64,000 nucleotides of DNA from Variovorax flavidus (GTDB lineage: Bacteria > Pseudomonadota > Gammaproteobacteria > Burkholderiales > Burkholderiaceae_C). Numbering within the stretch: the first letter of the stretch is position 1; each line of letters opens with the position of its first letter. Shown piece by piece: positions 26,498 to 41,509 of this stretch. The stretch is from the NCBI RefSeq assembly GCF_030317145.1, contig NZ_JASZYE010000004.1, positions 124,001-188,000 on the forward strand, in the 5' to 3' direction. The notes under the pieces are model-generated. The model worked only from the letters and a program-made list of their open reading frames with translations, was not told the DNA's origin and searched no databases. The position numbers were made by a program, and so were the translations under genes.

Positions 26498-26518
26498 GCG
26501 TTTGGCGCGCCCAGAAAA

Positions 26519-26548
26519 AAGCCCCCTCACATGACTGCGGGGGGGCTA
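26519..26548 (-). terminator. Intrinsic terminator after the 29-residue smORF
   Basis: On the minus strand AGCCCCC and GGGGGCT (26541-26547 with 26520-26526) form a stem, followed immediately by a T6 run (AAAAAA at 26515-26520 on the plus strand). It lies about 45 bases after the smORF stop. The stem can also form for the convergent TPR gene, but without a T-run on that side. Confidence 0.75.
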
Positions 26549-26550
26549 AT

Positions 26551-26568
26551 CCATCGAAAAGACGATGG
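26551..26568 (-). other. Small 6-bp hairpin in the smORF 3' region
   Basis: CCATCG and CGATGG separated by six bases, between the smORF stop and the terminator. May protect the short transcript's 3' end. Structure seen, role inferred. Confidence 0.35.
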
Positions 26569-26591
26569 AGGAGACAACTGGGGTCTGTCTG

Positions 26592-26681
26592 TCAGCGAAG
26601 CTCGTCCAGCTTCTTCGAGGTCACATAACCCGAAGCAACGACGCCGGCGACGGCAACAAGGCAGAGAAAAACTGTGAACAT
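26592..26681 (-). CDS. 29-residue single-helix membrane protein
   Basis: Encodes MFTVFLCLVAVAGVVASGY followed by VTSKKLDELR. Residues 2-18 are hydrophobic enough for one membrane helix; the tail is charged and would lie in the cytosol or periplasm. Support for a true gene: GAGGAG eight bases before the ATG, a promoter-like TTGCAT-17-TATAAT about 30-60 bases upstream, and a hairpin plus T-run terminator downstream. That makes a complete, isolated transcription unit. Too short for routine gene calling. Family and function not recognised. Confidence 0.65.
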   Translation of the reverse strand: MFTVFLCLVAVAGVVASGYVTSKKLDELR

Positions 26682-26711
26682 TGGGTACTCCTCAATGACT
26701 GCGTTGGCTCG

Positions 26712-26740
26712 ATTATAGGGTAAACCCTAATTTCATGCAA
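26712..26740 (-). promoter_or_regulatory. Sigma-70 promoter with overlapping dyad for the smORF
   Basis: Minus strand TTGCAT (26735-26740), a 17-base spacer and perfect TATAAT (26712-26717). The spacer contains TAGGGT-AA-ACCCTA (read on the plus strand, 26716-26729), a perfect 6-bp-arm dyad touching the -10 box, as an operator would. Confidence 0.6.
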
Positions 26741-26759
26741 GGAGCAGCTCCCGGCCACG

Positions 26760-27701
26760 TCAGATCTCGATCAGCGCCGGCGCGTCTGCTGCCAGCGCCT
26801 GCTCCACCACGCCACGCGGCAGGGTCGGCGCGAACGACTCGATGAAGGCATGGACGTAGCCGCGCAGGTAGTTGCCGCGGCGCACCGCCAGCTTGGTGAG
26901 GTTGATGCCGAACAGCTCGCCCGCATCGAGCGCGCGCAGCTGCGTGTCGCGCTCGGCCTCGTACGCGATGCCGGCAACGATGCCGACCCCCATGCCGAGC
27001 TGCACGTAGGTCTTGATCACGTCCGCATCCATCGCGGTCAGCACGATGTTCGGCGCCAGCCCCTGGTCCTCGAAGGCCTTGTCGATGCGCGTGCGACCGG
27101 TGAAGCCGGTGTCGTAGGTGATCAGCGGATAGCGCGCGAGCGCTTCGAGCGTGAGCGGCGCATCGAGCAGCGGATGCCCCGGTGGCACGACCACCGAGTG
27201 CGTCCACCGGTAGCAGGGCAGGGCCACGAGTTGCGGGTAGTCGCCCAGTGCCTCTGTCGCGATGCCGACGTCGACCTCGCCACTCAGGAGCATCTGGGCG
27301 ATCTGCTTGGGCGAGCCCTGGTGGAGGTGCAGCTTCACGTTCGGAAACTGCGAGCGAAACTCCTGCACCGCGACCGGCAACGCATAGCGTGCCTGCGAAT
27401 GCGTGGCCGCGACCGAGAGCAGGCCGCTCTGGCGCGCGACGAACTCCTGTCCCGCGTGCTTGAGGTTGGTGCTCTCCATCAGCATGCGCTCGATGATGGG
27501 CAGCACATGGCCACCGGGTTCCGTGAGGCCGGTGAGCCGCTTGCCGGCGCGCACGAAGAGTTCGATGCCCAACTCTTCCTCGAGCTCGCGGATCTGCCGG
27601 CTCACGCCAGGCTGTGAGGTGTGGAGCGTATGGGCGACTTCGGTGAGGTTGAAGCCGCAGCGTACGGCCTCGCGCACCGAGCGCAATTGTTGGAAATTCA
27701 T
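26760..27701 (-). CDS. CysB/Cbl-type LysR regulator of sulfur metabolism
   Basis: 313 residues from MNFQQLRSVREAVRCGFNLTE, the canonical CysB/Cbl start; the frame extends upstream but with unrelated sequence. Winged helix at 1-60 (HTSQPGVSRQIRELEEELGIELFVRAGKRL) and a substrate domain from about 90 with SVAATHSQARYALP, TDxGF-type TYDTGFTGRTRID and VKTYVQLGMGVGIVA. Family members respond to sulfate-starvation signals (acetylserine, adenylyl sulfate) and switch on sulfonate use. It is the last gene of the organosulfur operon, with a LysR-type box upstream. Confidence 0.93.
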   Translation of the reverse strand: MNFQQLRSVREAVRCGFNLTEVAHTLHTSQPGVSRQIRELEEELGIELFVRAGKRLTGLTEPGGHVLPIIERMLMESTNLKHAGQEFVARQSGLLSVAATHSQARYALPVAVQEFRSQFPNVKLHLHQGSPKQIAQMLLSGEVDVGIATEALGDYPQLVALPCYRWTHSVVVPPGHPLLDAPLTLEALARYPLITYDTGFTGRTRIDKAFEDQGLAPNIVLTAMDADVIKTYVQLGMGVGIVAGIAYEAERDTQLRALDAGELFGINLTKLAVRRGNYLRGYVHAFIESFAPTLPRGVVEQALAADAPALIEI

Positions 27702-27785
27702 GATGCTCGAACGAAAAACGGCGCCCACAGGGGCGTGGCGGGCCATTGTCCGCAGAGGCATCAGATTGGGGAACGACCGAATCGT

Positions 27786-27806
27786 TGATTCCAAATAGGG
27801 AAATCA
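27786..27806 (-). promoter_or_regulatory. LysR-type box (T-N11-A) upstream of the CysB/Cbl-like gene
   Basis: TGATT and AATCA, separated by exactly 11 bases, about 85 bases before the regulator ATG. This is the standard LysR recognition geometry and suggests autoregulation or an internal promoter. Confidence 0.5.
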
Positions 27807-27827
27807 TCTTTGGCCGCGGCGGCGGCC

Positions 27828-28784
27828 TCAGGCGCCGGTCGCAAAGCCGGCGTCGAAAGTCGGGCGCACGTCCAGCGGCTGCTTGATGAGCCCCACCTGG
27901 TGATAGAAGTCCGCCGTGCGCTGCTGGTCGGCAATGACCTGCGCGTCGATCGGCACCCACTTCTGCTGGCGCCGTTCGAACTGAAGCTTCGCGGCCTCGG
28001 GCGGGATGCCGATGATGCGTGCGAGCGTGGCCGAGAAAGCGTCGACGTTGCGGTACGACCAGGCCTGCGCCTTGACCACCCGCTGCAGGAAGTCCTGCAG
28101 TACCGGCCGCTTGGCGGCGATCGCTGCGTCGGTCGCTGCCAGGTAGCTCAGGCCCGGCAGCAGGCTGCGTCCACTGACCAGCACCCGCGCGTGATGGCTG
28201 GTCTCGGCCAGCGCGGTGTAGGGCTCCCAGGTCGCCCAGGCGTCGACCGAGCCTTGCGTCAGCGCGAGCTTCGCATCTGCGGGCGCGAGAAAGCGGATGT
28301 TGACGTCCTCGGGCTTCAGGCCGGCGGTGGTGATGGCTTTGAGCGTCACGTAGTGGCCGATGGAGCCGCGGTTCGTCGCGATGCTCTTGCCCTTGAGGTC
28401 GGCGGCGGTCTTCAGCGGCGAATCCGGCCGCACCAGAACGGCCGTGCCGTAGGAGTCCGAGCGGTTCGCACCGATGGCCTTGACGCGCGTGCCGGCTGCA
28501 AGCGCGAAGATCAGCGGCGCATCGCCGATCGGGCCCGAATCCACGGCGCCAGCGTTGAGCGCTTCGGCCAGCGGCGCGGCGGCAGGGAACTCCGACCACT
28601 GGATGTCGTAGGCCAGGCCTTCCAGTCCGCCGGCCGCTTCGAGCAACGCCCGCAGGCCGCCCTTCTGGTCGCCGGCCTTGAGCACCGGGCGCGATTGCGC
28701 ATGCAGCATGGCCGCCGGCAGGGCGAGCGCTGCAGCGCCGGCAAGCGAGTGGGTGATGAATTGGCGGCGGGATGCCTGAGTCAT
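27828..28784 (-). CDS. SsuA-like sulfonate/organosulfur ABC binding protein
   Basis: 318 residues. Tat-like signal (SRRQFITHSLAGAAALALPAAMLHA, cleavage near 29). Typical aliphatic-sulfonate/taurine-type binding-protein motifs: VDSGPIGDAPLIFALAAGTRVKAIGA, ADLKGKSIATNRGS and GSVDAWATWEPY. It would present the substrate to the permease encoded further up the same operon. A second binding protein gene at 31877-32878 differs, so two substrates may share one permease. Confidence 0.9.
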   Translation of the reverse strand: MTQASRRQFITHSLAGAAALALPAAMLHAQSRPVLKAGDQKGGLRALLEAAGGLEGLAYDIQWSEFPAAAPLAEALNAGAVDSGPIGDAPLIFALAAGTRVKAIGANRSDSYGTAVLVRPDSPLKTAADLKGKSIATNRGSIGHYVTLKAITTAGLKPEDVNIRFLAPADAKLALTQGSVDAWATWEPYTALAETSHHARVLVSGRSLLPGLSYLAATDAAIAAKRPVLQDFLQRVVKAQAWSYRNVDAFSATLARIIGIPPEAAKLQFERRQQKWVPIDAQVIADQQRTADFYHQVGLIKQPLDVRPTFDAGFATGA

Positions 28785-28820
28785 GAGGGAACTCCTTGAA
28801 GGATGGAAATTCGGAAGAGG

Positions 28821-29981
28821 TCAGTGGACGAAGCCGCCCTTGAGGAAGCGCACCGGCTCCGCATCCATGCGGGCGATGAGCGCGCCCAGGCCGTCGGCGG
28901 GTGGCGGGTCGTCCTGCGCGCTGCCGGGTCCGGCGGCGGTGCGGCACAGCAGGTCGTCTTCGGACCAGCCGGCCTTGCCCGGCGCGCTGCGCGCGCGCAG
29001 CCAGCCATCGCGGTCCGCGAGCAATTGCGTGCCGCCGAGCTGGTCGGTGCCGGCGATCAATGCGAACGCCTCCCACGCTGCGGGCGAATCGGCCACGCAA
29101 TCCGCCACATGTGGCTGCGCAGCGCTCGCAGCGGGTCGAAGCTGCACGGTGACCACGCGCGGGTCTTCGGGCAGGGCGGCCGCTGAGCCGGCCGCGACGA
29201 TCCGCAGGCGCTGTCCTCGCCAGGTCGAGAGGGGACGCGGTTCGCGGCCTTCGCATCGGACGATGACTTCAGGCAAGCCGATCGGCTGGCTCCAGACGCC
29301 GGTGGCCCGCAGGCTCTGTCCGGCACCCTGCGCCTTCATGAAGTCGATCAACGCCCACGCCTCCGCGTCCGCGAGCCGATCGAAGGCCGGCATGGTGGTT
29401 GCGCCATGCCGATCCTTCGTGCCATGGAGCACGTGCCACAGCAGATCGCCATCGGCGCGCCGCCACAACAGGGGCCCGGCAAGGTTCGGCGGCCATACCG
29501 CCTGCGCTGCGGCCAGCGGACCTTGTCCCCGGCCGTCGGCGCCGTGGCAGCCCACGCAATGCTGGGCATAGAGCGCGCGACCCTGCGCGATGGACGCGGC
29601 GCTGAAACCGGTGGGCGAGCGATGGAAGCTCGTGGGATACGCAGGCACGAGCACCACCTCAGCTTGCGGCCATGGCGCAAGCACCAGCAGCAACGGCACT
29701 GACCCGAGCAGGAGCCATCGGCGCCGTCGCCAGACCAGCGCGCCCAGGAGCAAGAGCACGACGAGCGACAGCACGAGCAGCGTCAACGCCAGCCGCCGCG
29801 CTTGCCCGAGGTCGATCAACAGGTTCTCGCCCGAGAGCCGGAGCGGCCACGGCCAAGCAGGTTGTCCGTGGCTGGAGCCGGCCAGCCCCAGCCAGGCCAG
29901 CAGACGGAGCAATCCGAGTTGCACGCCCTGCAGCAGCCCGATCAATGGATTCAGCCATCCGGCATCCGCCAGCGCCGTCAT
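28821..29981 (-). CDS. Membrane-anchored mono-heme cytochrome c with C-terminal extra domain
   Basis: 386 residues. N-terminal hydrophobic segments at about 10-35, 64-85 and 88-105, then a periplasmic cytochrome c domain with heme site CVGCH at 142-146 and probable axial methionine M197 (TTMPAF). The remaining 170 residues begin like a redoxin/SCO-type strand (EPRPLSTWRGQRLRIV) and contain few cysteines. It sits inside an ABC-transporter operon for organosulfur compounds, 37 bases before the SsuA-like gene, where electron carriers are unexpected. It may accept electrons from a periplasmic oxidation of the substrate. Role is inference. Confidence 0.82.
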   Translation of the reverse strand: MTALADAGWLNPLIGLLQGVQLGLLRLLAWLGLAGSSHGQPAWPWPLRLSGENLLIDLGQARRLALTLLVLSLVVLLLLGALVWRRRRWLLLGSVPLLLVLAPWPQAEVVLVPAYPTSFHRSPTGFSAASIAQGRALYAQHCVGCHGADGRGQGPLAAAQAVWPPNLAGPLLWRRADGDLLWHVLHGTKDRHGATTMPAFDRLADAEAWALIDFMKAQGAGQSLRATGVWSQPIGLPEVIVRCEGREPRPLSTWRGQRLRIVAAGSAAALPEDPRVVTVQLRPAASAAQPHVADCVADSPAAWEAFALIAGTDQLGGTQLLADRDGWLRARSAPGKAGWSEDDLLCRTAAGPGSAQDDPPPADGLGALIARMDAEPVRFLKGGFVH

Positions 29982-30000
29982 GCCTCAGGGTGGGCCACCG

Positions 30001-30810
30001 TCACCACGTCGCGTCCAGGCCGAGATGGCGAAGTGCTTCATGTCGAAGCTCCGCCAGCCGAGGATGGCCCCGATGCCGTGGATAGGGCAGGTCGACCACC
30101 AGCTCCGCCGAGATGCGCGCAGGACGGTCGCTCAGCACGATCACGCGGTTGGCGAGGAACAGCGCCTCCTCGACGTCATGCGTCACCAGCAGCGCCGAGA
30201 ACCCGGCGCGCTGCCACAGGCTCACCAGCTCGCTTTGCATGGCAATGCGCGTGAGCGAATCCAGCTTGCCCAGCGGCTCGTCGAGCACGAGCAGGCGCGG
30301 GTCGTTGACCAGCGCGCGGGCGAGCGCCACGCGCTGCGCCATGCCGCCCGACAACTGATGGGGAAAGCTCTTCGCGAACTCGCTGAGGCCCACGAGCTTG
30401 AGCGCATCGTCGACCCGCGAGCGCTGGGTCTTCAGCAGGCCGCGCGCCTGCAAACCCAGCGCGACGTTGTCCCAGACGCTGCGCCATGGGTAGAGCGTCG
30501 GGTCCTGGAACACGACGATGCGCGACGGGTCGGGCCGCGTGATGGGCTCGCCGTCCTGCGCGATGCTGCCCGAGGTCGCGGGTTCGAGCCCGGCCACGAG
30601 CCGCAGCAGGGTCGACTTGCCGCAGCCGCTCGGCCCCAGCAGCGCGACGAACTCGCCGGGCCGCACGTCGAGGTCGATGCCGTCGAGGACCTGCAGCACG
30701 CCCGTCGGCAGCTTGAACCAGTGGCTGACATTGCGGATGTCGATGTGCGCGCCCGCACTGGCGGCCGGCGCGGCCGCGTGGACGGTCGCCGTGTCTGCCG
30801 TGTCTACCAT
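30001..30810 (-). CDS. Sulfonate-type ABC transporter ATP-binding protein
   Basis: 269 residues. Walker A GPSGCGKST at 59-67, signature LSGGMAQRVALARAL near 155, Walker B LLVLDEPLGKLDSLTR, and H-loop VTHDVEEALFLANR. Groups with the SsuB/TauB/NitT family. The start overlaps the permease stop by 7 bases. Powers the permease at 30804-31880. Confidence 0.95.
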   Translation of the reverse strand: MVDTADTATVHAAAPAASAGAHIDIRNVSHWFKLPTGVLQVLDGIDLDVRPGEFVALLGPSGCGKSTLLRLVAGLEPATSGSIAQDGEPITRPDPSRIVVFQDPTLYPWRSVWDNVALGLQARGLLKTQRSRVDDALKLVGLSEFAKSFPHQLSGGMAQRVALARALVNDPRLLVLDEPLGKLDSLTRIAMQSELVSLWQRAGFSALLVTHDVEEALFLANRVIVLSDRPARISAELVVDLPYPRHRGHPRLAELRHEALRHLGLDATW

Positions 30811-31880
30811 TTGACCGTCCCCTTCTGCCAAGACAGCGCACGGTCGCGCACCGCGAAGAGCAGCGTGATCAGCCCGGAGCACAGCACCGCCATCACCAGC
30901 AGGGCGGCGTACATGTTGGCGTAGGCCGCCCAGCCCTGCGCCCACTGCAGGTACCAGCCGAGGCCGGCCTTCACGCCCATCATCTCGGCCGTGACCAGCA
31001 CCGAGAACGATGCGCCGAGGCCCATGAACAGGCCGACGAAGACCTGCGGCAGCGCGGCCGGCACGGCAACGCGCAGCACCAGGAACCACTCCGGCGCGCC
31101 CAGCGTGCGTGCCACGTCGTAGTAGTTCTTGTTGACCGAGGCCACGCCCGACCAGCTCAGCACCGCGACCGGGAAGAAGGTCGCGAGCCCGACCAGGAAG
31201 ACGGCCGCCGCATAGCTCGACGGCGCGAAGAAGAAGGCCAGCGGCAGCAGCGCCGACGCGGGCACCGGCCCCAGGAAACGCAGCAGAGGATGCACCCAGT
31301 AGCCCGCGATGCGCGACCAGCCGATCCACACGCCGGTCGCGAAGCCGACCAGCGCGCCAAGCACGAAGCCGTGCGCGAGCAGCCGCAGCGAATGCACGGT
31401 CGAGAGGCCGAGCCGGCCCCAGTCCTCGTAGGCGACATCGAGCAGGCTCTGCGGCGGGGCGAAGAAGGGCGGGGGCAGCACGCCGAGCTTGGCGGTCAGC
31501 ACTTCCCACAGCGCGAGCAGCAGCGGCGCAGCGATGAGCCAATGGCCGGCAGGCCGCAGCTTGCGGCCGACCCGGCCCGCGCGAGCGCCGAGCAGGGCCA
31601 CGACCAGGAGCAGCGCCGCGACGGTGATCGCACCGAGGCCGAACTCCCGCGTGAAGTTCCAGTCGCTGAAGCCGACCTCGCGGTTTGGCCAGGAGACCGT
31701 CAGCACGCCCAGCGCGAGCCACGCCGTGGCCGCAACGATGCCCGTGCGCCAGATGCCGGTCAGCTCAGGCTCGCGCAAGGCGGCGGGCGCGGCGATGGCG
31801 GGCGTGTCGCGTCGGGCGCGCACCGGCGGCGGGACCGCCTGAGGCCGCGCGCCGCCAAGGAAGCTTTCAGCCGTCGTCAT
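30804..31880 (-). CDS. Sulfonate-type ABC transporter permease
   Basis: 358 residues with an unusually long N-terminal part: two to three helices and a basic loop before the usual SsuC-type core of about six helices. The EAA-loop region is GAPEWFLVLRVAVPAALPQVFVG. The ATG at 31880 overlaps the stop of the binding-protein gene by 4 bases, and its end overlaps the ATPase start. Complete importer together with those two genes. Confidence 0.93.
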   Translation of the reverse strand: MTTAESFLGGARPQAVPPPVRARRDTPAIAAPAALREPELTGIWRTGIVAATAWLALGVLTVSWPNREVGFSDWNFTREFGLGAITVAALLLVVALLGARAGRVGRKLRPAGHWLIAAPLLLALWEVLTAKLGVLPPPFFAPPQSLLDVAYEDWGRLGLSTVHSLRLLAHGFVLGALVGFATGVWIGWSRIAGYWVHPLLRFLGPVPASALLPLAFFFAPSSYAAAVFLVGLATFFPVAVLSWSGVASVNKNYYDVARTLGAPEWFLVLRVAVPAALPQVFVGLFMGLGASFSVLVTAEMMGVKAGLGWYLQWAQGWAAYANMYAALLVMAVLCSGLITLLFAVRDRALSWQKGTVKW

Positions 31881-32878
31881 GCCAGCACGTCCACCGACAC
31901 GTGATTCGCGAGCCGTACCGGATCGGTGCTCTGCTTCAGGACACCGACCGACTGGAAGTCGCGCGCATAGAACTCCACCTCGTCGCGCAGATTCTTGCCG
32001 ACCGGGTGGTGCGCGTGGGTCAGCGTGCCCAGCAGCGCCTGCAAGTCCTCGACCGGCACCTTGGGCGAGTACTTCGCGAACAGCCTGGCCGACTCGTTCG
32101 GGTTCTCCGCCACGAAGTCCGACGCCTGCACGATGGAGCGCACCAGCGCCGCCACCACCGGCTTTTCCTTGCGCACCAGCTCGCCGCGCGCGCCGACGAT
32201 GCAGCAGACCTTGTCCTTGTATTCGCCGGAGAGGTTGGATGCCAGCTCCAGGTAGCGGCCCTTGTTGCGCTTCTCGATCAGGTAGAGCGTCGGATCGCCA
32301 TCCGCGATGGCCTGGATCTCGCCCTTGTTGACCGCGATGTCGAGCAGGTCGGCCGGGTACTGGCGCCAGGTCACGTCCTTGTCGGCGTCGATGCCGTTCT
32401 TCTTGAGAAGGATGGAGAAGAAGTTCTTGCCGGGGCTGGCGATGTCCGACACGCCGATGGTCTTGCCTTTGAGCTTCTGCAGGTCGGTGACGCCGGCCTC
32501 CTTGACGCCCACGAGCCGCACGCAGCCGCCGTGCGAGCTGCCGACGATCTTCACGTCGAAGCCCGATTCGAGCGGCTTGAGCCAGCGGTGGATCATGCCC
32601 ACCGCCGCGTCGGCCTTGGCTGTGGCGAGGGATTCGAGCAGCTGGTCGGTCGAGCCCGTGTAGTTGATGAGGTCGACCTGCAGGCCGTTCTTCTCGAAGA
32701 TGCCGCGTTCCTGCGCGACCACCACGGGCGAGAGGCAGAAGGCTGTTGCGTTCCAGGCAAAGCTCAGCTTGCGCTGCTGCGACCACGCACGCGTGGCGAT
32801 CAGGCCGCTGGATGCGACGACGGCCGCGGCGCCGCCGGCGCGCAGCACGCCGCGGCGCGAAAGGGATGTGTTGTTCAT
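31877..32878 (-). CDS. NitT/TauT-type ABC substrate-binding protein
   Basis: 333 residues from MNNTSLSRRGVLRAGG. Tat-like signal with the twin arginines at 8-9 (SRRGVLRAGGAAAVVASSGLIATRAWS). Binding-protein features include FAWNATAFCLSPVVVAQERGIFEKNGL and LKGKTIGVSDIASPGKNFF. It is coupled by a 4-base overlap to the permease and is therefore the main candidate for its substrate delivery. Substrate is probably a sulfonate or related organosulfur compound, by context only. Confidence 0.9.
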   Translation of the reverse strand: MNNTSLSRRGVLRAGGAAAVVASSGLIATRAWSQQRKLSFAWNATAFCLSPVVVAQERGIFEKNGLQVDLINYTGSTDQLLESLATAKADAAVGMIHRWLKPLESGFDVKIVGSSHGGCVRLVGVKEAGVTDLQKLKGKTIGVSDIASPGKNFFSILLKKNGIDADKDVTWRQYPADLLDIAVNKGEIQAIADGDPTLYLIEKRNKGRYLELASNLSGEYKDKVCCIVGARGELVRKEKPVVAALVRSIVQASDFVAENPNESARLFAKYSPKVPVEDLQALLGTLTHAHHPVGKNLRDEVEFYARDFQSVGVLKQSTDPVRLANHVSVDVLA

Positions 32879-32907
32879 GATGGGGAGAGGTTTGCTGGGT
32901 TGCGGGG

Positions 32908-33741
32908 TCACTGAAGCAGATCGGGCTCGGCCTCGACCAGCCCTTCGTAAAGGCTCTCGAAGGCATGCAGCGCGCCTTCAGGTCCGCCGATCTGCCCATG
33001 CGTGTGGCGGGCGACCGATTCGTCGATGGGCTTCGGCGTGCCGGCGGCTTCGGCCAGCAGTTGGGTGTGGCAGGCGTTGTCGAGCGCGATGTACCACCAC
33101 GCGGCGGCCTCCACGCTCGGGCCGGCGCTCAGGATGCCGTGGTTCTGGAGGATCGCGCCCTTGCGATCGCCCAGCGCCTTCGCGATGCGCAGTCCTTCGC
33201 TCTCGTCGACCACCATGCCGGTGAAGTCGTCGAAGAGCGCGTGGTCGTCATGGAACACGCAGGCGTCCTGCGTGAGCGTGTCGAGCTTGCGGCCCAGCGT
33301 CGACCACGCCTTGCCATAGGTCGAGTGCGTGTGCGCGGCGGCAATGATCTTCGGGTTGTATTCGTGGATCGCGGCGTGGATGGCAAAAGCCGCCTTGTTG
33401 AGCGGGCGATCGCCGATCACGGTCTCGCCCTTCGCGTTGACCAGCAGCAGGTCCGACACCTTGATGCGCGAGAAGTGCACGCCCAGCGGGTTGACCCAGA
33501 AGTGGTCCGTCAACTCCGGGTCGCGCGCCGTGATGTGGCCGGCCAGCCCTTGCGCGAAACCGAATCGGGCGAAGAGGCGGAACGCACCCGCCAGTCGCTC
33601 CTGCCGATGACGGCGCTCGGCCTCGATGCTGGTGCGCGGCGCGGGCGGGTCGAACCAGTACTTCTGTTGCGGCTTCGGGTTGAGGGCGAGCCGCGTGCGG
33701 GGAGGGTCCCCGCCGCGCTCGATGTGGAGGACGGCGCTCAT
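32908..33741 (-). CDS. Class II aldolase/adducin family protein
   Basis: 277 residues from MSAVLHIERGG, with a good ribosome site before it; an ATG nine codons earlier is also in frame. Zinc-site histidines in AAAHTHSTYGKAWS, a third one likely in QNHGIL, and the GDHxxARDPE-like GLAGHITARDPELTDHFWVNP segment. Members include fuculose aldolase and many enzymes of unassigned substrate. In the organosulfur operon, a role in metabolising the carbon skeleton left after desulfonation is possible but unproven. Confidence 0.88.
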   Translation of the reverse strand: MSAVLHIERGGDPPRTRLALNPKPQQKYWFDPPAPRTSIEAERRHRQERLAGAFRLFARFGFAQGLAGHITARDPELTDHFWVNPLGVHFSRIKVSDLLLVNAKGETVIGDRPLNKAAFAIHAAIHEYNPKIIAAAHTHSTYGKAWSTLGRKLDTLTQDACVFHDDHALFDDFTGMVVDESEGLRIAKALGDRKGAILQNHGILSAGPSVEAAAWWYIALDNACHTQLLAEAAGTPKPIDESVARHTHGQIGGPEGALHAFESLYEGLVEAEPDLLQ

Positions 33742-33775
33742 TCGGTTCCTTCTGGCCAGGGGGTGCATCGTCGGG

Positions 33776-34879
33776 TCAGGCGGCCTTGCGCTGCGCGGCC
33801 AGGCGCTGTGCCACCAGTTCGCGCGTGCGCGGAATCAGTTCGCGGCCGTAGTCGATGGCGTCTTCGAGCGGGTCGAAGCCTCGGATCAGGAAGGTGGTCA
33901 CGCCGAGGTCGTAGTAGTCCAGCAGGGCATCGGCCACCTGCTCGGGCGTGCCGACCAGCGCCGTGCTGTTCGAGCGGCCGCCGATTTCCTGCGCCACGGC
34001 TGTCCACAGGCGCTTGTCGAGCCGCGTGCCCTTTTCGGCCGCGGCGAGCAGGCGCTTGGCGCCTTCGCTCTGCTGCGGGCCGCCGCGTCCGAAGCCCTGC
34101 ACGACGCGAAGACGGCGCGTCTCCGCGAGGACGCCGTCGGCGCGTTCCCAGGCCTTCTCCTCGGTCTCGGCCAGGATCGGGCGGAAGGACACCGAGAAGC
34201 GGACCTTGCGTCCGTGCCTCGCGGCCTCCGCCCGCACACGGCCCGTGAGCTCGCGCGCCTGGTCGAGCGATTCGCCCCACAGCGCGTACACGTCGGCATG
34301 CTTGCCGGCGACCGGGATCGCGGCCTCCGACGCGCCGCCGAAGTACACCGGCACGTGCGGCCTGCCGTTGAGCGACTGCGCCGGCTTCACCTCCGAGAAG
34401 GCATCCTTGAAGCGGTAGTGCGCGCCTTCATGGTCGAAGGGCTTGTCGCTGGTCCACACCTTGCGCAACACGTCGAGGTATTCGTCGGTGCGGGCATAGC
34501 GCTGGTCGTGGTCGAGCCAGTCGCCGTCGCGCTTCTGCTCGTCGTCCGAGCCGCCCGAGATGTAGTGCACGCCGAGCCGTCCGCCGCTGAACTGGTCGAG
34601 CGAGGCGAACTGCCGCGCCGCGAGCGTCGGCGCGACGAAGCCGGGCCGGTGCGCCAGCATGAAGTGGATGCGCTCGGTGACCGATGCGGCATAGGCCACG
34701 GTCAGCGTGGCGTCGGGGCTGGTGGAGTGGTGCGGCACCAGCACGCGGTCGAAGCCGGCCTGCTCGTGAGCCTGGGCGAAGGCGCGCACGTAGTCGCGGT
34801 CGATTGCGGGGCCGCGCGCGGGGTGGATTTCCGAGACCTTCTGGGCCTGGATCATGCCGATGAATTCGATGTCGCTCAT
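33776..34879 (-). CDS. LLM-class FMN-dependent monooxygenase (SsuD-like)
   Basis: 367 residues from MSDIEFIGMIQAQKVSEIHPARG. Luciferase-like fold; the GSDDEQKRDGDWLDHDQRYARTDEYLDVLRKVW and GGASEAAIPVAGKHADVYALWG segments are typical of alkanesulfonate monooxygenase SsuD and its relatives. They use reduced FMN and O2 to cleave a C-S bond, releasing sulfite. No flavin reductase gene is visible in the cluster. First gene of the minus-strand operon. Confidence 0.92.
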   Translation of the reverse strand: MSDIEFIGMIQAQKVSEIHPARGPAIDRDYVRAFAQAHEQAGFDRVLVPHHSTSPDATLTVAYAASVTERIHFMLAHRPGFVAPTLAARQFASLDQFSGGRLGVHYISGGSDDEQKRDGDWLDHDQRYARTDEYLDVLRKVWTSDKPFDHEGAHYRFKDAFSEVKPAQSLNGRPHVPVYFGGASEAAIPVAGKHADVYALWGESLDQARELTGRVRAEAARHGRKVRFSVSFRPILAETEEKAWERADGVLAETRRLRVVQGFGRGGPQQSEGAKRLLAAAEKGTRLDKRLWTAVAQEIGGRSNSTALVGTPEQVADALLDYYDLGVTTFLIRGFDPLEDAIDYGRELIPRTRELVAQRLAAQRKAA

Positions 34880-35069
34880 GGGTGCGTCCTTGCAATGAAA
34901 CGAGGGTGGGAAGAGGGGAAGGCCAGTAAAAGGAAGCGTCTTCCGTGTCGTCTGGAGAAAAGGCGTGACCGTAAGGCGCGTGTGCTCGAAAACGAACGCA
35001 GAAAAACGAGTTTGGATATGCACCTTCCGTCGTTTTCCGCGCGCGTGGCGGCGGCTAAGGTCCGGCTCC

Positions 35070-36269
35070 ATGAGTTCACCAGTCCTGCGCCGCGTATCGG
35101 CCGCACCCGAATCGGACGATGCGCTGCTCGCGCAGCTGTCCTCCCTTTTTGCCGAAACCGCGGCCGATCACGATCGCAGTGGCGCATTCCCGCGCGAGAA
35201 CTTCGCCGCGCTGCAGGCCAACGGGCTTGTCAGCCTGGTCGCGCCGCGCGCGCACGGCGGTGGTGGTGCGTCGCTCGAAACCGCGCGCCGCGTGCTGGCA
35301 GCCGTCGCCTACGGCGAGCCCGCGACCGCGCTGATCCTCACGATGACCTGGCTGCAGCACCTCGCGATCGGCCGTACCGACAGCCGCTGGCCGCAGCATC
35401 TGCGCGAACGCGTGCTGCGCGATGCCGTGCGTGGCGGGGCATTGATCAACGCCTTGCGCGTGGAGCCCGCGCTGGGCTCGCCTGCGCGAGGCGGCCTGCC
35501 CGCCACGACCGCGCGTATCGAGGGCGATCAATGGAAGCTCAGCGGCCACAAACTCTACACCACCGGCATCGAGGGCCTGAGCTGGCTGTCGGTGTGGGGC
35601 CGCACGGACGAGGACGCTCCGCGCGTCGGCGTCTTCCTGGTGCCGCGCGATGCGCCCGGCGTTCGCGTGATTGCCAGCTGGGACCACCTGGGACTTCGCG
35701 CCTCGGGCAGCCATGAGGTGATCTTCGAGAACGTCGCGATCCCGCTCGACCATGCGGTCGATCTGCGCGCGCCGGCCGATTGGGCGCCCGATGCGGGCAG
35801 CCAGACCGACATCGACGCCCACGCGACGCAGCAGGCCTGGATGGTGGTGTTGCTGGGCACGCTCTACGACGCGGTGGCGCGAGCGGGACGCGACTGGCTG
35901 CTCGGCTTCCTCAACCGGCGGGCTCCGAGCGGGCTCGGCGCGCCGCTGGCCAGCCTGCCGCGCGTGCAGGAGGCCGTCGGCGAGATCGAGGCCTTGCTGA
36001 GCGCCAGCCGCGTGCTGCTGGACCATGCGGCCGCCGAAGTGGACGCGGGCCGCGCGCCCTCCGCCACGGAGAGCGGCTTGCTGAAGTACACGGTCACGGC
36101 CCATGCGATCCGGGCGGTCGAGTTGGCCTTGCAGCTCAGCGGCAACCACGGCCTCACGCGGCAGAACCCGCTGGAGCGCCACTACCGTGACGTGCTGTGC
36201 AGCCGCATCCACACGCCGCAGAACGACGCGATCCTGGTAACGGCCGGCAAGGCCGCGCTCTCGCGATGA
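35070..36269 (+). CDS. Acyl-CoA-dehydrogenase-like flavoprotein (SfnB/DszC-type)
   Basis: 399 residues from MSSPVLRRVSAAPESD, read 190 bases from the divergent SsuD-like gene. Acyl-CoA dehydrogenase fold: N-terminal helical part, FAD-binding middle (LSGHKLYTTGIEGLSWLSVWGR, GVRVIASWDHLGLRASGSHEVIFENV), and a helical C-terminus with LQLSGNHGLTRQNPLERHYRDVLCSRIHTPQNDAILVTAG. In sulfur-starvation loci such proteins (SfnB, DszC) act as reduced-flavin monooxygenases, not dehydrogenases. Its stop overlaps the next ATG (ATGA). Confidence 0.88.
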   Translation: MSSPVLRRVSAAPESDDALLAQLSSLFAETAADHDRSGAFPRENFAALQANGLVSLVAPRAHGGGGASLETARRVLAAVAYGEPATALILTMTWLQHLAIGRTDSRWPQHLRERVLRDAVRGGALINALRVEPALGSPARGGLPATTARIEGDQWKLSGHKLYTTGIEGLSWLSVWGRTDEDAPRVGVFLVPRDAPGVRVIASWDHLGLRASGSHEVIFENVAIPLDHAVDLRAPADWAPDAGSQTDIDAHATQQAWMVVLLGTLYDAVARAGRDWLLGFLNRRAPSGLGAPLASLPRVQEAVGEIEALLSASRVLLDHAAAEVDAGRAPSATESGLLKYTVTAHAIRAVELALQLSGNHGLTRQNPLERHYRDVLCSRIHTPQNDAILVTAGKAALSR

Positions 36270-36838
36270 GCGCGCGGCTGCGCGATTTCGTCGTCGCTTT
36301 CGGCCGGCTGATCGACACCCATCCCGCGGAGCCGCGCATCCTGGAAGAGGGCGGTGCCTTGCTGCGCGGCCTCGTCGCGCGCGACGACTGGCTGCCCGAT
36401 GCTTTTGCGAAGCCGCATCCGGAGCGCTATCAGCAATACCTGCTGCACCTCGATGCGGCCGATCGCTTCTCGGTGGTGAGCTTCGTCTGGGGGCCCGGCC
36501 AGGCCACGCCGGTGCATGACCACACGGTGTGGGGCCTGATCGGCATGCTGCGCGGCGCCGAGTACAGCCAGGCCTATCGCGAGCGGGATCGGCTTCTGAC
36601 GGCGCAAGGGGCTCCGGTCCGGCTCGATCCGGGCGATGTCGAGGCCGTGTCGCCGACCGTCGGCGACGTGCACCGCGTGCGCAACGCCTATGACGATCGC
36701 GTGTCGATCAGCATTCACGTCTATGGCGCCGACATCGGCAAGGTCCGACGCCATACTTACCCACCGGGCGGCGGGCGCAAGCCTTTTGTCTCTGGTTACT
36801 CGGAATTTCCTCAAGGCTTGCCTGTTTCATCGCCATGA
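36266..36838 (+). CDS. Gln-type thiol dioxygenase (3-mercaptopropionate-dioxygenase-like)
   Basis: 190 residues. Cupin fold with iron ligands H84 and H86 (HDHTVWG) and H136. Aligned to rat cysteine dioxygenase, Arg60 corresponds to Q57 here (YQQYLL), marking the Gln-type group that prefers 3-mercaptopropionate over cysteine. The crosslink cysteine is absent, as is usual in bacteria; Y153 is retained. It would convert the thiol to the sulfinate, which then loses sulfite. ATGA-coupled to both neighbours. Often annotated as cysteine dioxygenase. Confidence 0.9.
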   Translation: MSARLRDFVVAFGRLIDTHPAEPRILEEGGALLRGLVARDDWLPDAFAKPHPERYQQYLLHLDAADRFSVVSFVWGPGQATPVHDHTVWGLIGMLRGAEYSQAYRERDRLLTAQGAPVRLDPGDVEAVSPTVGDVHRVRNAYDDRVSISIHVYGADIGKVRRHTYPPGGGRKPFVSGYSEFPQGLPVSSP

Positions 36839-38433
36839 CTGCTTCCCTCTCCTTCGCCTCCGTGCGTGCGCATCTGCTCGCGCGTGACGAAATCGCCTTC
36901 CTCGACGTGCGCGAGGAAGACCCGTATGCACAGGCTCATCCGTTGTGGGCCGCCAATCTGCCGCTGTCGAGGATCGAACTCGATGCGTGGCGCCGCATTC
37001 CGCGGCGCGACACGCTGATCGTGCTCTATGGCGATCACGACGGTGTCGATCTGGCGCCGCTCGCGGCCGAGCGACTCGCCGCCCTGGGCTATGTGCGCGT
37101 CCATCTGCTGCAAGGCGGGCTCGACGGCTGGCGAGATGCGGGCGGCGAGCTGTTCCGCGACGTCAATGTGCCGAGCAAGTCCTTCGGCGAGCTGGTCGAG
37201 CATGAGCGCCATACGCCTTCGCTTTCGGCGCAGGAGGTCAAGGCCCTGATCGATGCGCGAGCCGATGTGGTGGTGCTCGACGCACGGCGATTCGACGAGT
37301 TCCAGACCATGAGCATTCCCACCGCCACCAGCGTGCCGGGCGCCGAGTTGGTGCTGCGCGTGCGCGAACTGGCGCCGGACCCGGCGACGCAGGTGATCGT
37401 CAATTGCGCCGGCCGGACGCGCAGCATCATCGGCACGCAGTCGCTGGTGAATGCGGGCATTCCCAATCCGGTCGCGGCGCTGCGCAACGGAACCATCGGC
37501 TGGAAGCTGGCCGGGCAGGTGCTCGACCACGGCGCCTCGCGCCCCGCACCCGCGCCGGGATTCGCGAACCGCGCCGCCGCGCAGGCGAACGCGCAGGACG
37601 TGGCGCGGCGCGCGGGCGTGCGCACGATCGGCCTCGATGCGCTCGCCTCGCTCGAAGCACCGGGCCGGACGGTCTATCGCTTCGACGTTCGCACGCCTGA
37701 GGAGTTCGAGGCCGGCCACCTGCCGGGCTTTGCCAGCGCGCCCGGCGGCCAGCTGGTGCAGGAAACAGATCACCACGTGCCGGTGCGCGGCGCACGTATC
37801 GTGCTTGCCGACGACGATGGCGTTCGTGCACCGATGACGGCATCGTGGCTCGCGCAGATGGGCTGGGAGGTGTATGTGGTGGAGGCGCAGCCCGTATCGG
37901 CCCGCAGTTCCCGGGGTGCGACGCCGGCCGACCATGCGGGTGCACCGCCGGTTGCAGGGATCACGCCGGCCGAACTCGCCGACGCCTTGCACACGCCGGG
38001 AGACATTGCGGTGATCGACGTCACGACCAGCGCCAACCACGCGAAGCGCCATATTCCGGGCGCCTGGTTCGCGATCCGCGCGCAACTGGCGCAGGCGCTG
38101 GATGTGATTCCCGTCGCGCGCCGCTACGTGCTGACATGCGGCAGCAGCCTGCTCGCGCGCTTTGCCGCCGTCGATCTGCGAGCCTTGCTCGCCGCGCGCG
38201 GCCGTGATGCCGATGTGGTCGTGCTGGAGGGCGGCAACGCCGCATGGTTCGCCGCCGGCCTGCCCGCGGAAACCGGTTGGATTCGCCTCGCCACACCGAC
38301 CACCGACCGCTACCGCCGTCCGTACGAAGGCACCGACGCGCCGGCCGAGGCAATGCAGGCCTACCTCGACTGGGAATTCGGCCTTGTCGCGCAGCTTGCA
38401 GCGGACGGAACGCATCACTTCAACGTCATCTAG
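36835..38433 (+). CDS. Four-domain rhodanese
   Basis: 532 residues with four tandem rhodanese domains: about 8-105, 128-225, 265-352 and 378-475. Active-site loop positions are Y65 (YGDHDG, no Cys), C191 (CAGRTR), D326 (no Cys) and C435 (CGSSLL). Thus two domains, the second and fourth, can carry a persulfide and two cannot. Coupled to the thiol dioxygenase by an ATGA overlap. Presumably transfers or traps sulfur released by the pathway. Confidence 0.9.
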   Translation: MTASLSFASVRAHLLARDEIAFLDVREEDPYAQAHPLWAANLPLSRIELDAWRRIPRRDTLIVLYGDHDGVDLAPLAAERLAALGYVRVHLLQGGLDGWRDAGGELFRDVNVPSKSFGELVEHERHTPSLSAQEVKALIDARADVVVLDARRFDEFQTMSIPTATSVPGAELVLRVRELAPDPATQVIVNCAGRTRSIIGTQSLVNAGIPNPVAALRNGTIGWKLAGQVLDHGASRPAPAPGFANRAAAQANAQDVARRAGVRTIGLDALASLEAPGRTVYRFDVRTPEEFEAGHLPGFASAPGGQLVQETDHHVPVRGARIVLADDDGVRAPMTASWLAQMGWEVYVVEAQPVSARSSRGATPADHAGAPPVAGITPAELADALHTPGDIAVIDVTTSANHAKRHIPGAWFAIRAQLAQALDVIPVARRYVLTCGSSLLARFAAVDLRALLAARGRDADVVVLEGGNAAWFAAGLPAETGWIRLATPTTDRYRRPYEGTDAPAEAMQAYLDWEFGLVAQLAADGTHHFNVI

Positions 38434-38530
38434 CCCGCCCTCAGGCTTCACGGCTTTAAGGGCAAGCGGGGCGGGCTGCGGGCTTCCTGCGCCGTCGCAC
38501 TAGACTAGCCGCCATTCAGGAGTTTCCAAA

Positions 38531-39622
38531 ATGGCAGTTACACAAGAGGCGCTCGGGCAGGCGCTCAAGTCCGTCCTCGACCCCAATACAGGCAAGGATT
38601 TCGTCAGCACCAAGGCGCTGAAGAACCTGCAGATTCACGAAGGCGACGTGTCCTTCGACATCGAGCTGGGCTATCCGGCCAAGAGCCAGATGCCGGCCCT
38701 GCGCAAGGCGCTGGTGGCCGCGGCCAAGACAGTGGCGGGTGTGGAGAACGTGTCGGTCAACATCGCGACCAAGGTCATCAGCCATGCCGTGCAGCGCGGC
38801 GTGCAGCTGATGCCCAACGTGAAGAACATCATCGCCGTGGCATCGGGCAAGGGCGGCGTCGGCAAGAGCACGACCGCGGCCAACCTGGCGCTCGCGCTCG
38901 CGGCCGAGGGCGCCAGCGTCGGCCTGCTCGACGCCGACATCTACGGCCCAAGCCAGCCCATGATGCTGGGCATCGACCGCCGCCCCGAGAGCGAGGACGG
39001 CAAGACCATGGAGCCGCTGGAGAACCACGGCGTGCAGGTCATGTCGATCGGTTTCCTGGTCGACCAGGACGAAGCCATGATCTGGCGCGGCCCAATGGCC
39101 ACGCAGGCGCTGGAGCAGTTGCTGCGCCAGACCAACTGGAAGGACCTGGACTACCTCATCGTCGACATGCCGCCCGGCACCGGCGACATCCAGCTCACGC
39201 TCTCGCAGCGCGTGCCGATGACGGGCGCGGTGATCGTCACCACGCCGCAGGACATCGCGCTGCTGGACGCCAGGAAGGGCATCAAGATGTTCGAGAAGGT
39301 CGGCGTGCCGATCCTCGGCATCGTCGAGAACATGGCGGTGCACGTGTGCTCGAACTGCGGCCACGTCGAGCACATCTTCGGCGCCGAGGGCGGCAAGAAG
39401 ATGGCCGAGCAATACAGCATGGACTACCTCGGCGCGCTGCCGCTGGACATCAACATCCGCCTGCAGGCCGACAGCGGCAAGCCGACAGTGGTAGCCGATC
39501 CTGACGGGGAGGTGGCCGGCATCTACAAGTCCGTCGCGCGCCGTGTCGCGGTGGGCATCGCGGAAAAGGCCAAGGACTTCTCCGCCAAGTTCCCGACGAT
39601 CACCGTCAGCAAGAACACCTGA
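38531..39622 (+). CDS. apbC: Mrp/ApbC family Fe-S cluster carrier ATPase
   Basis: 363 residues. N-terminal MIP18-like domain (about 1-90) followed by a ParA/MinD-type P-loop (ASGKGGVGKSTTAAN) and a C-terminal CSNCG cluster-binding motif near 275. Scaffolds and transfers [4Fe-4S] clusters. CAGGAG lies before the ATG. Stands alone, upstream of Fe-S-rich formate dehydrogenase genes that would use such clusters. Confidence 0.95.
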   Translation: MAVTQEALGQALKSVLDPNTGKDFVSTKALKNLQIHEGDVSFDIELGYPAKSQMPALRKALVAAAKTVAGVENVSVNIATKVISHAVQRGVQLMPNVKNIIAVASGKGGVGKSTTAANLALALAAEGASVGLLDADIYGPSQPMMLGIDRRPESEDGKTMEPLENHGVQVMSIGFLVDQDEAMIWRGPMATQALEQLLRQTNWKDLDYLIVDMPPGTGDIQLTLSQRVPMTGAVIVTTPQDIALLDARKGIKMFEKVGVPILGIVENMAVHVCSNCGHVEHIFGAEGGKKMAEQYSMDYLGALPLDINIRLQADSGKPTVVADPDGEVAGIYKSVARRVAVGIAEKAKDFSAKFPTITVSKNT

Positions 39623-39706
39623 GATCGTTGCTTTGCCCCCTACGGGGGGCCGGTCGATATGCGAAACCCTATTGACCTTTTGTAACAATTTCGCCCACAC
39701 TCCGCG

Positions 39707-39725
39707 GGCCCCCTTCAGAGGGGCC
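39707..39725 (+). other. 6-bp hairpin upstream of the OFA transporter
   Basis: GGCCCC pairs with GGGGCC across a 7-base loop, about 35 bases before the transporter ATG. A related GCCCCC/GGGGGC hairpin at 39635-39650 follows apbC. No T-run after either, so leader or weak terminator. Confidence 0.35.
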
Positions 39726-39759
39726 ACAGACCACAACAAACGGTACAGGAGTTAGGTAA

Positions 39760-41457
39760 ATGGCAAGTTCAAGCGCTGGCGTCCTCGGCGGGGGCGGCAA
39801 CATCGACGTGTTGGGTCCGCAGCCCGGCATTCTCGACAAGGAAAGAATCATTGCGGGGCCGGGTTTCAACCGCTGGCTCGTGCCGCCCGCGGCTCTCGCG
39901 ATCCATCTCTGCATCGGGATGGCCTATGGCTTCTCGGTGTTCTGGCTGCCGCTGTCGAAGGCGCTGTCGACGGCAGGCCACGGCGCACAGGCTTGTCCCA
40001 AGGACATGAGCTTCTTCGCCGAGCTGTTCGCCACCGGCTGCGACTGGCGCATCGCCACGCTGGGCTGGATGTACACGCTGTTCTTCGTGTTCCTGGGCTG
40101 CTCGGCAGCGCTATGGGGCGGATGGCTCGAACGCGCCGGTCCGCGCAAGGCCGGTGTCGTTTCCGCGCTGTGCTGGTGCGGCGGCATGATCCTGTCGGCG
40201 CTGGGTATCCACCTGCATCAGTTCTGGCTGATGATCCTCGGCTCGGGCGTGATCGGTGGCATCGGGCTCGGCCTGGGCTACATCTCGCCGGTCAGCACGC
40301 TCATCAAGTGGTTCCCCGACCGGCGCGGCATGGCGACCGGCATGGCAATCATGGGCTTCGGCGGCGGCGCGATGATCGGTTCGCCGCTCGCCGTCGACCT
40401 GATGAAGGCCTTCTCCAGCGCGACCGACGTGGGCGTGATGCAGACCTTCGTCGTGATGGCCCTCGTCTACTTCGTCTTCATGATGGCCGGTGCGTTCGGC
40501 TATCGCGTGCCGCCCACCGGATGGAAGCCGGCAGGCTGGACGCCGCCACCGGCGCAGACCGGCAACGCGATGATCACGCAGCGCCACGTGCACGTGAAGA
40601 AGGTCTGGGGCATCCCGCAGTTCTGGCTCGTGTGGCTGGTGCTCACGATGAACGTCAGCGCAGGCATCGGCGTGATCGGCATGGCGAGCCCGATGCTGCA
40701 GGAGGTGTTCGGCGGCAACCTGATCGGCGTCGCGAAGACCTTCGGTGAACTCGACAAGGCGCAACTCGCGTCCATCGCCGCGGTGGCCGGCGGCTTTGCC
40801 GCGCTGCTGTCGCTCTTCAACATCGGCGGTCGCTTCTTCTGGGCGAGTCTCTCGGACAGGCTCGGCCGCAAGCTGACCTACACCGTCTTCTTCGTGCTCG
40901 GCGGGTTGCTGTACTGGAGCATCCCGTCGTCGGCGGGCGCGGGCAGCAAGCTGCTGTTCGTCGGTGCGTTCTGCATCATCCTGTCGATGTACGGCGGCGG
41001 CTTCTCGACGGTGCCGGCCTATCTGGCCGACCTGTTCGGCACGCAGATGGTGGGCGCGATCCATGGCCGCCTGTTGACCGCCTGGGCCACGGCCGGCATC
41101 CTCGGTCCGGTGGTGGTGAACTACATGCGCGAGTACCAGCTGGGGCTTGGCATTCCGCGCGAGCAGGTCTACAACCAGACCATGTACATCCTGGTCGGCA
41201 TGCTGGCGGTGGGATTGATCGCCAACCTGCTGGTGCGGCCGGTGGCGGACAAGCACTTCATGAGCGAAGAGGAACTCGCGATCGAGAAGAGGCTGGCGCA
41301 CGAGAAGGCCGCCGCTTCCGAAGTCGGCTCGGGCTCCGCAGCGACCAGCGGTGCGGTGAGCCCGCTCGTCGTCGTGCTCGCATGGGTGGCTGTCGGCATC
41401 CCGCTCGCGTGGGGTGTCTACAAGACACTGGTGGCCGCTGCGAAATTCTTCAACTGA
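39760..41457 (+). CDS. OFA-family MFS transporter (oxalate/formate antiporter type)
   Basis: 565 residues, about 12 helices with short extra segments. Family signatures: HLCIGMAYGFSVFWLPLSKAL, LGYISPVSTLIKWFPDRRGMATGMAIMGFGGGAMIGSPLA and GGRFFWASLSDRLGRKLTYTVFFVLG. The C-terminal hydrophobic segment is at about 540-560. Placed 53 bases upstream of an NAD-linked formate dehydrogenase, so formate or oxalate transport is likely. A terminator-like hairpin lies just before it at 39707-39725. Confidence 0.88.
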   Translation: MASSSAGVLGGGGNIDVLGPQPGILDKERIIAGPGFNRWLVPPAALAIHLCIGMAYGFSVFWLPLSKALSTAGHGAQACPKDMSFFAELFATGCDWRIATLGWMYTLFFVFLGCSAALWGGWLERAGPRKAGVVSALCWCGGMILSALGIHLHQFWLMILGSGVIGGIGLGLGYISPVSTLIKWFPDRRGMATGMAIMGFGGGAMIGSPLAVDLMKAFSSATDVGVMQTFVVMALVYFVFMMAGAFGYRVPPTGWKPAGWTPPPAQTGNAMITQRHVHVKKVWGIPQFWLVWLVLTMNVSAGIGVIGMASPMLQEVFGGNLIGVAKTFGELDKAQLASIAAVAGGFAALLSLFNIGGRFFWASLSDRLGRKLTYTVFFVLGGLLYWSIPSSAGAGSKLLFVGAFCIILSMYGGGFSTVPAYLADLFGTQMVGAIHGRLLTAWATAGILGPVVVNYMREYQLGLGIPREQVYNQTMYILVGMLAVGLIANLLVRPVADKHFMSEEELAIEKRLAHEKAAASEVGSGSAATSGAVSPLVVVLAWVAVGIPLAWGVYKTLVAAAKFFN

Positions 41458-41471
41458 CAGACCAGAGACAA

Positions 41472-41494: not shown

Positions 41495-41509
41495 ACAAGG
41501 CCGAGGCAT

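Follow-up and report, generated by a model that had tools for sequence, protein, structure and literature searches.

Thiol dioxygenases related to the Variovorax flavidus island

Thiol dioxygenase genes have been described in several bacterial organosulfur clusters, and we compared these with an eleven-gene island at positions 26760-38433 of a 64-kb stretch of the Variovorax flavidus genome (contig NZ_JASZYE010000004.1; hereafter the window, a part of the 6.6 Mb host genome), citing published reports from excerpts of their text. In Advenella mimigardefordensis, the desulfinase gene acd, whose product belongs to the acyl-CoA dehydrogenase (ACAD) superfamily, adjoins mdo, and msdo pairs with a rhodanese and an ATP-binding cassette (ABC) transporter (PMC5373536). 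The island resembles both clusters, with a thiol dioxygenase beside an ACAD-superfamily protein as in the mdo-acd cluster for 3,3'-dithiodipropionic acid (DTDP), and beside a rhodanese and an ABC transporter as in the msdo (mercaptosuccinate) cluster. However, the Advenella clusters have a CoA ligase (with an acyl-CoA transferase family III in the cluster too) and TctC receptors or a PAAT-type ABC transporter, and the excerpted text names no luciferase-like enzyme in them and treats them as carbon-source catabolism (PMC5373536).

In the same genus, the thiodipropionate cluster of V. paradoxus TBEA6 (mdo, act, acdA) also contains a 3-mercaptopropionate dioxygenase (3MDO) gene (PMC6370202), although its other partners in the excerpts differ and the desulfinase is missing from the V. 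flavidus genome by model cut-off. In Pseudomonas protegens, 3mdo and tst are apparently transcribed as a single unit, and deletion of 3mdo raises 3-mercaptopropionate (PMC12947264); the island likewise shows a 3MDO gene followed by a sulfurtransferase gene. Transcripts of P. aeruginosa PA2594 (sulfonate-binding protein) and PA2598 (monooxygenase) drop when PA2504 is mutated, as do those of ssuF and the cys genes (PMC8466066), and PA2602 is listed under direct BsrA control (PMC8407307). The name PA2600 in a further report was rejected as a gene mention, being a strain name (PMC6851120). In Gordonia, a gene named cysteine dioxygenase is among those whose levels rise when organosulfur compounds are the only source of sulfur (PMC7661421).

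Sulfur supply by group C and group D two-component flavin monooxygenases, with one reductase feeding many, is described for sfnG-msuC-msuD/ssuD and Dms1-3 of Pseudomonas and Acinetobacter, where MsuC and MsuD/SsuD perform equivalent C1 steps and Dms1-3, which belong to group D, act together with MsuE to oxidise dimethyl sulfide (PMC13352529). The island is alike in its pair of flavoenzyme genes, luc and acd, the likeness to Dms1-3 being by description; it differs from sfnG-msuC-msuD/ssuD in that luc has no sulfonate site, acd is far from MsuC and under the SfnB cut-off, and a dioxygenase and a rhodanese are added. The cytochrome module of the island is not mentioned in the excerpts on P. protegens 3mdo-tst or on the P. 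aeruginosa PA2594-PA2603 region, whose full gene order in PAO1 we presume. No account of the full eleven-gene set was found in excerpts of the open-licence PMC literature, and the island is kin to the sulfur-starvation organosulfur clusters already known.

Predicted route of carbon-sulfur bond cleavage

The island is a real, conserved sulfur-assimilation island. Our favoured reading, which we rate a little short of an even chance, is that it scavenges sulfur by cleaving the C-S bond of an organosulfur compound other than a plain alkanesulfonate. Most likely, the CysB-family regulator would turn the island on when sulfate is scarce, and the SsuA-type binding proteins, together with one ABC transporter, would bring in the organosulfur compound, for which a carboxylated thioether, sulfoxide or sulfone would be candidates rather than a plain alkanesulfonate. 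Acd, as a group D enzyme, may oxidise the sulfur and Luc, as a group C enzyme, the carbon beside it, breaking the C-S bond with reduced flavin from reductases whose genes lie outside the island. A carboxylated thiol, e.g., 3-mercaptopropionate, either released by this cleavage or entering by itself, would be converted to a sulfinate by the thiol dioxygenase. Sulfane sulfur may be dealt with by the four-domain rhodanese and the aldehyde fragment by the aldolase-like metalloprotein, and the membrane cytochrome c may act as periplasmic redox partner of the ABC transporter; the sulfur would finally reach cysteine synthesis as sulfite or sulfide. The conserved partners offer a pathway that can be tested for 3-mercaptopropionate dioxygenase, an enzyme which already has structures and kinetics.

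The thiol dioxygenase

The dioxygenase is of the 3-mercaptopropionate type by all residues tested, in agreement with the Gln-type assignment made in the first-pass annotation. Its best matches in PDB were 4qma (278 bits), 6xb9 (253 bits) and 3uss/4tlf (230 bits), the first named cysteine dioxygenase type I and the others 3MDO, followed at a distance by mercaptosuccinate dioxygenase (38 bits) and, among the matches listed, type 1 cysteine dioxygenases (22-25 bits). The Gln, which presumably stands where cysteine dioxygenase has Arg60, the three His iron ligands, the Ser-His-Tyr triad and Arg168 are invariant in 140 of 140 aligned rows including the window, although these rows were chosen at 45% identity at least, with stop-containing rows and exact duplicates dropped, and the invariance is thus no independent test for them. 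In Av3MDO (6XB9), Arg168 binds the carboxylate (PMC8050391).

The dioxygenase is the sole CDO_I family match in the host genome. By its sequence, the nearest named relatives of the host genome are Variovorax species (best 80 of 545 relatives), with 92% identity to Variovorax sp. J22P240. On a quick tree, the island-linked dioxygenases cluster together, with 13 changes compared to 44.6 in shuffles and none of 500 shuffles as low, a clustering which is inflated by near-copies.

Conservation of the gene set

Gene content was compared in three samples of loci. Sample A comprises 80 named loci, from the best 80 of the 545 dioxygenase relatives, and is biased; sample B comprises 26 loci around luc from 24 non-host genomes in a phylum sample of 398 genomes; and sample C comprises 46 dioxygenase loci of a 250-genome order sample, where 45 genomes other than the host matched. 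The gene counts in these samples rest on set identity and coverage thresholds and on loci of unequal length (11 of the 46 in sample C are under 15 kb), and since the 10-kb flanks cut genes near the ends, those of lysR and sbp2 are low estimates.

The comparison with other Burkholderiales proposed in the first-pass annotation found the set conserved across many of the loci in sample A, and this conserved gene order speaks against chance. Rhodanese is found in 75 of the 80 loci, luc and acd in 64 each (both in 61), ald in 54, the permease and the cytochrome in 43 each (both in 42). In sample B, acd is found in 15 of the 26 loci, rhodanese in 14, the dioxygenase in 11, ABC genes in 10 and the cytochrome in four. 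A class-wide sample showed the dioxygenase in four of 274 genomes. Across these samples, the dioxygenase is more widespread than the island, and luc more widespread than the dioxygenase.

Several points weigh against the proposed pathway. Of the 26 luc loci in sample B, 11 have no acd and 15 have no dioxygenase above threshold (that of L129 is visible only as two pieces), so that each enzyme may have a step or substrate of its own. Sample C shows rhodanese in seven of 46 loci and luc and acd in one each; therefore, the dioxygenase itself is not tied to the pathway. The P. protegens tst mutant showed no significant 3-mercaptopropionate effect (PMC12947264), which leaves the coupling of rhodanese and dioxygenase unproven, and growth of the P. 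aeruginosa PA2504 mutant was normal on the sulfur sources tried (PMC8466066). Finally, the reaction of Luc is argued by exclusion.

The gene set might instead be a collection of independent systems that share only a sulfur-starvation regulon, with luc and acd acting on one compound, the dioxygenase and rhodanese on endogenous 3-mercaptopropionate, and the ABC transporter and cytochrome on another. The modules are indeed found apart: dioxygenase and rhodanese without luc (e.g., L070, L079 and L081), ABC and cytochrome genes with dioxygenase and rhodanese where orthologues of both luc and acd are missing (L055, L073 and L075), and luc with no further island gene above threshold (L115 and L132). 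However, the tight gene overlaps and the same partners re-assembled in differing orders (L025, L067, L108, L112 and L137) make this explanation unlikely.

The flavoenzymes Luc and Acd

Luc belongs to a separate subfamily and by sequence is not an alkanesulfonate monooxygenase. It is homologous to SsuD and MsuD, its nearest relatives among solved structures (MsuD 7jv3, 212 bits; SsuD, 181 bits); with the SsuD equivalog model it reaches 233.6 bits, far under the cut-off of 518.2. In MsuD, W195, R225 and R296 hold the sulfonate, and Ala at any one of them leaves no measurable sulfite (PMC8234197). Luc shows Ser for R225 and Arg for H227 in 106 of 106 sequences (64 of 64 from the window and named loci, one of 65 rows being omitted as too short, and 42 of 42 from other loci, down to 44% identity). 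The alignment also shows R296 replaced by Ile, Thr, Leu, Val or Ser in all 106 and an altered RGGA loop. Y330 is Phe in 105 of 106, and W195 is retained in 102 (64 of 64 and 38 of 42), with Phe in the other four. Furthermore, the C-terminal tail is absent from 12 subfamily members aligned with two SsuD/MsuD-type proteins of the host genome, whose genes sit elsewhere, each near an FMN_red-family gene. A simple sulfonate is probably not the substrate of Luc.

Acd carries the acyl-CoA dehydrogenase fold according to Pfam. Its profile matched best the PDB entries 5gj7/5z8t (257.5 bits), then 3m9v/4kcf, which we take to be the sugar N-oxygenase KijD3, and short-chain acyl-CoA dehydrogenase (SCAD); scores were low with 5af7 (80.8 bits), presumably the Advenella desulfinase, DszC (65.7 bits) and MsuC 6u76 (58.8 bits). 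The single paper listed under the code 5gj7 dealt, judging by its title, with another subject. The sequence falls under every NCBIfam cut-off listed, the best models being SfnB (TIGR04022, 109.5 bits for a cut-off of 430.9) and the desulfinase NF042439 (108.3 bits for 600), while the DszC equivalog gives 43.2 bits for a cut-off of 850. The first description of Acd as SfnB/DszC-like is therefore not supported in that form: SfnB is its best NCBIfam model but lies far under the cut-off, and Acd is distant from DszC and MsuC. At the site of the dehydrogenase catalytic Glu, which we place after the YRD motif, 59 of 63 sequences show Thr, three Ala and one Arg, and none shows Glu; the printed SCAD alignment stops at RITEIY opposite the RIH of Acd, just ahead of this residue. 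His381 is invariant in the 63 rows. Acd is probably a group D monooxygenase.

Given that Luc has lost the sulfonate-binding arginines and that Acd is remote from both MsuC and DszC and has no dehydrogenase glutamate, the island probably acts on something other than a plain sulfonate, and both enzymes fall outside the characterised C-S-cleaving enzymes compared. The first-pass annotation as a whole is thus partly supported: its frame of a sulfur island holds, and its step of sulfonate cleavage does not.

A linear thiol route, in which the dioxygenase gives a sulfinate, an MsuC-like Acd a sulfonate, and an SsuD/MsuD-like Luc an aldehyde and sulfite, was favoured at first; it is chemically neat and agrees with the structural neighbours of Luc, with the overlap of the acd and dioxygenase genes and with the equivalent C1 steps of MsuC and MsuD/SsuD (PMC13352529). 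It was demoted because of the residues of Luc, which lacks R225, R296, an intact RGGA loop and, in the 12 aligned members, the tail, and because of the MsuC score of Acd (58.8 bits vs. 257.5 for 5gj7), and we now regard it as doubtful. Quite improbable is a role of Acd as desulfinase, converting 3-mercaptopropionate via 3-sulfinopropionate to propionate (or its CoA ester) and sulfite with Luc acting upstream or on another substrate, since, although the Advenella desulfinase gene acd adjoins mdo (PMC5373536) and Acd scores nearly the same with the desulfinase model as with SfnB, it lies far under the 600-bit cut-off, which no protein of the host genome reaches (best 278 bits), scores just 80.8 bits with 5af7, and the island has no CoA ligase or transferase, whereas in the excerpted accounts Advenella uses a CoA ligase and Variovorax TBEA6 a ligase or transferase for 3-sulfinopropionate.

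A second acd paralogue with 47% identity is located at G000:C29 of the host genome, in an operon that, judged by eye, also encodes an Old-Yellow-type flavoprotein, a dipeptide-type ABC transporter and a TetR regulator. In Variovorax UMC13 (L012), this operon closes with an intact dioxygenase gene, and V. boronicumulans (L016) shares the cluster order. Taken with the island, enzymes of the Acd type adjoin thiol dioxygenases in two kinds of operon. Beside the paralogue operon of the host genome lies a stop-bearing, decayed remnant of a second thiol dioxygenase gene (L082 2760-3252, G000:C29 about 64760-65250).

Gene layout and accessory proteins

Pfam matches, obtained by scanning the full open frames, cover each of the eleven genes and, together with the coordinates, confirm two divergent sets, eight genes leftward and three rightward, filling the island (Table 1). 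The overlapping starts first reported are present in four of the nine same-strand junctions (7 nt in permease/ATPase; 4 nt each in sbp1/permease, acd/dioxygenase and dioxygenase/rhodanese), the other five being gaps of 19-126 nt. A sigma-70 consensus scan of positions 26500-38600 gave zero matches.

Table 1. Genes and intergenic region of the V. flavidus island, in window coordinates; gene starts were picked by eye.
Feature	Position	Strand	Evidence
lysR, LysR-type regulator, CysB family	26760..27701	-	NF009327 465.2 bits, cut-off 402
sbp2, SsuA-family substrate-binding protein	27828..28784	-	TIGR01728 220.4 bits, cut-off 163.5; TAT_signal 21.6 bits, under cut-off 22.7
cyt, c-type cytochrome, one CxxCH haem site	28821..29981	-	PF13442/PF00034
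ABC transporter ATPase, sulfonate/nitrate/taurine type	30001..30810	-	PF00005; best NCBIfam SsuB-type 240 bits, under cut-off 395
ABC transporter permease	30804..31880	-	PF00528
sbp1, NMT1/SsuA-like substrate-binding protein	31877..32878	-	PF09084; TIGR01728 96.6 bits, under cut-off 163.5
ald, class II aldolase/adducin-family protein	32908..33741	-	NF004855 435.6 bits, cut-off 255
luc, group C (luciferase-like) flavin monooxygenase, SsuD-related subfamily	33776..34879	-	PF00296
Intergenic region between divergent sets, 190 nt, presumed promoters	34880..35069	.	gene coordinates
acd, acyl-CoA-dehydrogenase-fold flavoenzyme	35070..36269	+	PF00441/PF02770/PF02771; best PDB relatives 5gj7/5z8t
3-mercaptopropionate-type thiol dioxygenase	36266..36838	+	PDB matches and residues
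rho, four-domain rhodanese	36835..38433	+	PF00581, four stretches

The regulator, first called CysB/Cbl, is over the cut-off of the CysB family and under those of the CysB and Cbl equivalogs. Import of SsuA type is supported, with sbp2 over the TIGR01728 cut-off and sbp1 under it. The protein first called a class II aldolase matches that family and keeps the HxH and NHG histidines in 55 of 55 sequences, but it has Ala at the FucA Glu73 site, presumably that of the catalytic glutamate, and the first assignment is not supported in that form. The four rhodanese domains first described correspond to four PF00581 stretches, with a loop Cys at the tested position in domains 2 and 4 only (Cys191 in 73 of 73 rows and Cys435 in 70, with three gaps; three of 76 rows were omitted as too short).

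Counted from gene orders, the permease-ATPase-cytochrome block is absent in 15 of the 80 sample A loci. Two to four SsuA-like binding proteins are found, with the block absent, in L007, L014, L018, L026, L029, L032, L035, L041, L043, L045, L047, L049, L050, L053 and L058.

Downstream of the island, positions 38531-46266 contain genes for Mrp/ApbC, a major facilitator superfamily transporter (lactate/oxalate-formate type) and an NAD-linked formate dehydrogenase. The latter was rejected as a pathway member, its orthologues adjoining the island only in L002, L003 and L005-L007 of the 80 named loci.

The cytochrome and the gene slot after the ABC transporter ATPase

The cytochrome is not a random insert. 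Wherever cyt and the ATPase gene occur together in samples A, B and P (47 loci), they are on the same strand with a gap of 0-274 nt, and in beta-proteobacteria with the block, the slot after the ATPase gene mostly contains cyt (42 of 43 permease loci, sample A). The haem Cys, Cys and His and Met197 are invariant in 41 of 41 rows (one of 42 omitted as too short), and the N-terminal part is hydrophobic and was taken by eye as a membrane anchor. Among the best 120 of 682 cytochrome homologues, the telling source names are cytochrome names only. An origin of cyt as relic of a CopD-cytochrome fusion was rejected: Pfam finds no CopD in cyt, and the host genome gives only three matches besides cyt itself, all to its haem domain, so that the copper link is one of gene position alone.

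Seventeen named plasmid loci (L102-L108 and L134-L143) were hand-picked from 5, 96 and 58 records, and counts on them are examples, not rates. Copper genes are found in five of these 17 and in none of the loci of samples A, B and C. YcnI (DUF1775) and a CopC/CopD-family protein occupy the slot in Paracoccus denitrificans, Haematobacter, Rhizobium daejeonense and Pararhizobium gei, and a CopC protein occupies it in P. yeei. The slot holds a dioxygenase and a rhodanese in Azospirillum, a pyridoxal phosphate (PLP) sulfur-transfer enzyme in Pseudoroseomonas and Shinella (in Shinella after a small hypothetical protein), and a luciferase-like monooxygenase followed by a PLP sulfur-transfer enzyme in Roseomonas. 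In the hand-picked records, sulfur genes adjoin homologues of the island ABC or flavoenzyme genes, i.e., PLP sulfur-transfer enzymes, cysteine synthase, ssuD and cysT/cysW.

With a membrane cytochrome c (beta-proteobacteria) or YcnI and CopC/CopD (some alpha-proteobacteria) in the slot, what is imported may be a thiol compound that binds copper or is redox-labile. This belongs to a broader reading in which luc and acd would form an uncharacterised two-flavoenzyme C-S-cleaving system, found in alpha-, beta- and gamma-proteobacteria and acting on organosulfur compounds of a class without known degradation route, its ABC transporter being coupled to periplasmic redox or copper handling. We consider this reading improbable as a whole; a link of an organosulfur transporter to cytochrome or copper proteins would be unexpected, if true.

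On the alpha-proteobacterial plasmids, the YcnI/CopC/CopD genes lie directly 3' of the ATPase gene in the acd-luc operon (L103, L104, L134 with CopC alone, L135 and L143). In L103 (15097-18993) and L104 (15302-19080), and likewise in L134 and L135, the copper genes are followed by another luciferase-like monooxygenase, of 442 aa in L103, together with an ABC transporter of its own. Finally, TonB-dependent receptors are found near luc/acd or ABC genes in Klebsiella, Sphingobium and Pantoea (L102, L140 and L141).

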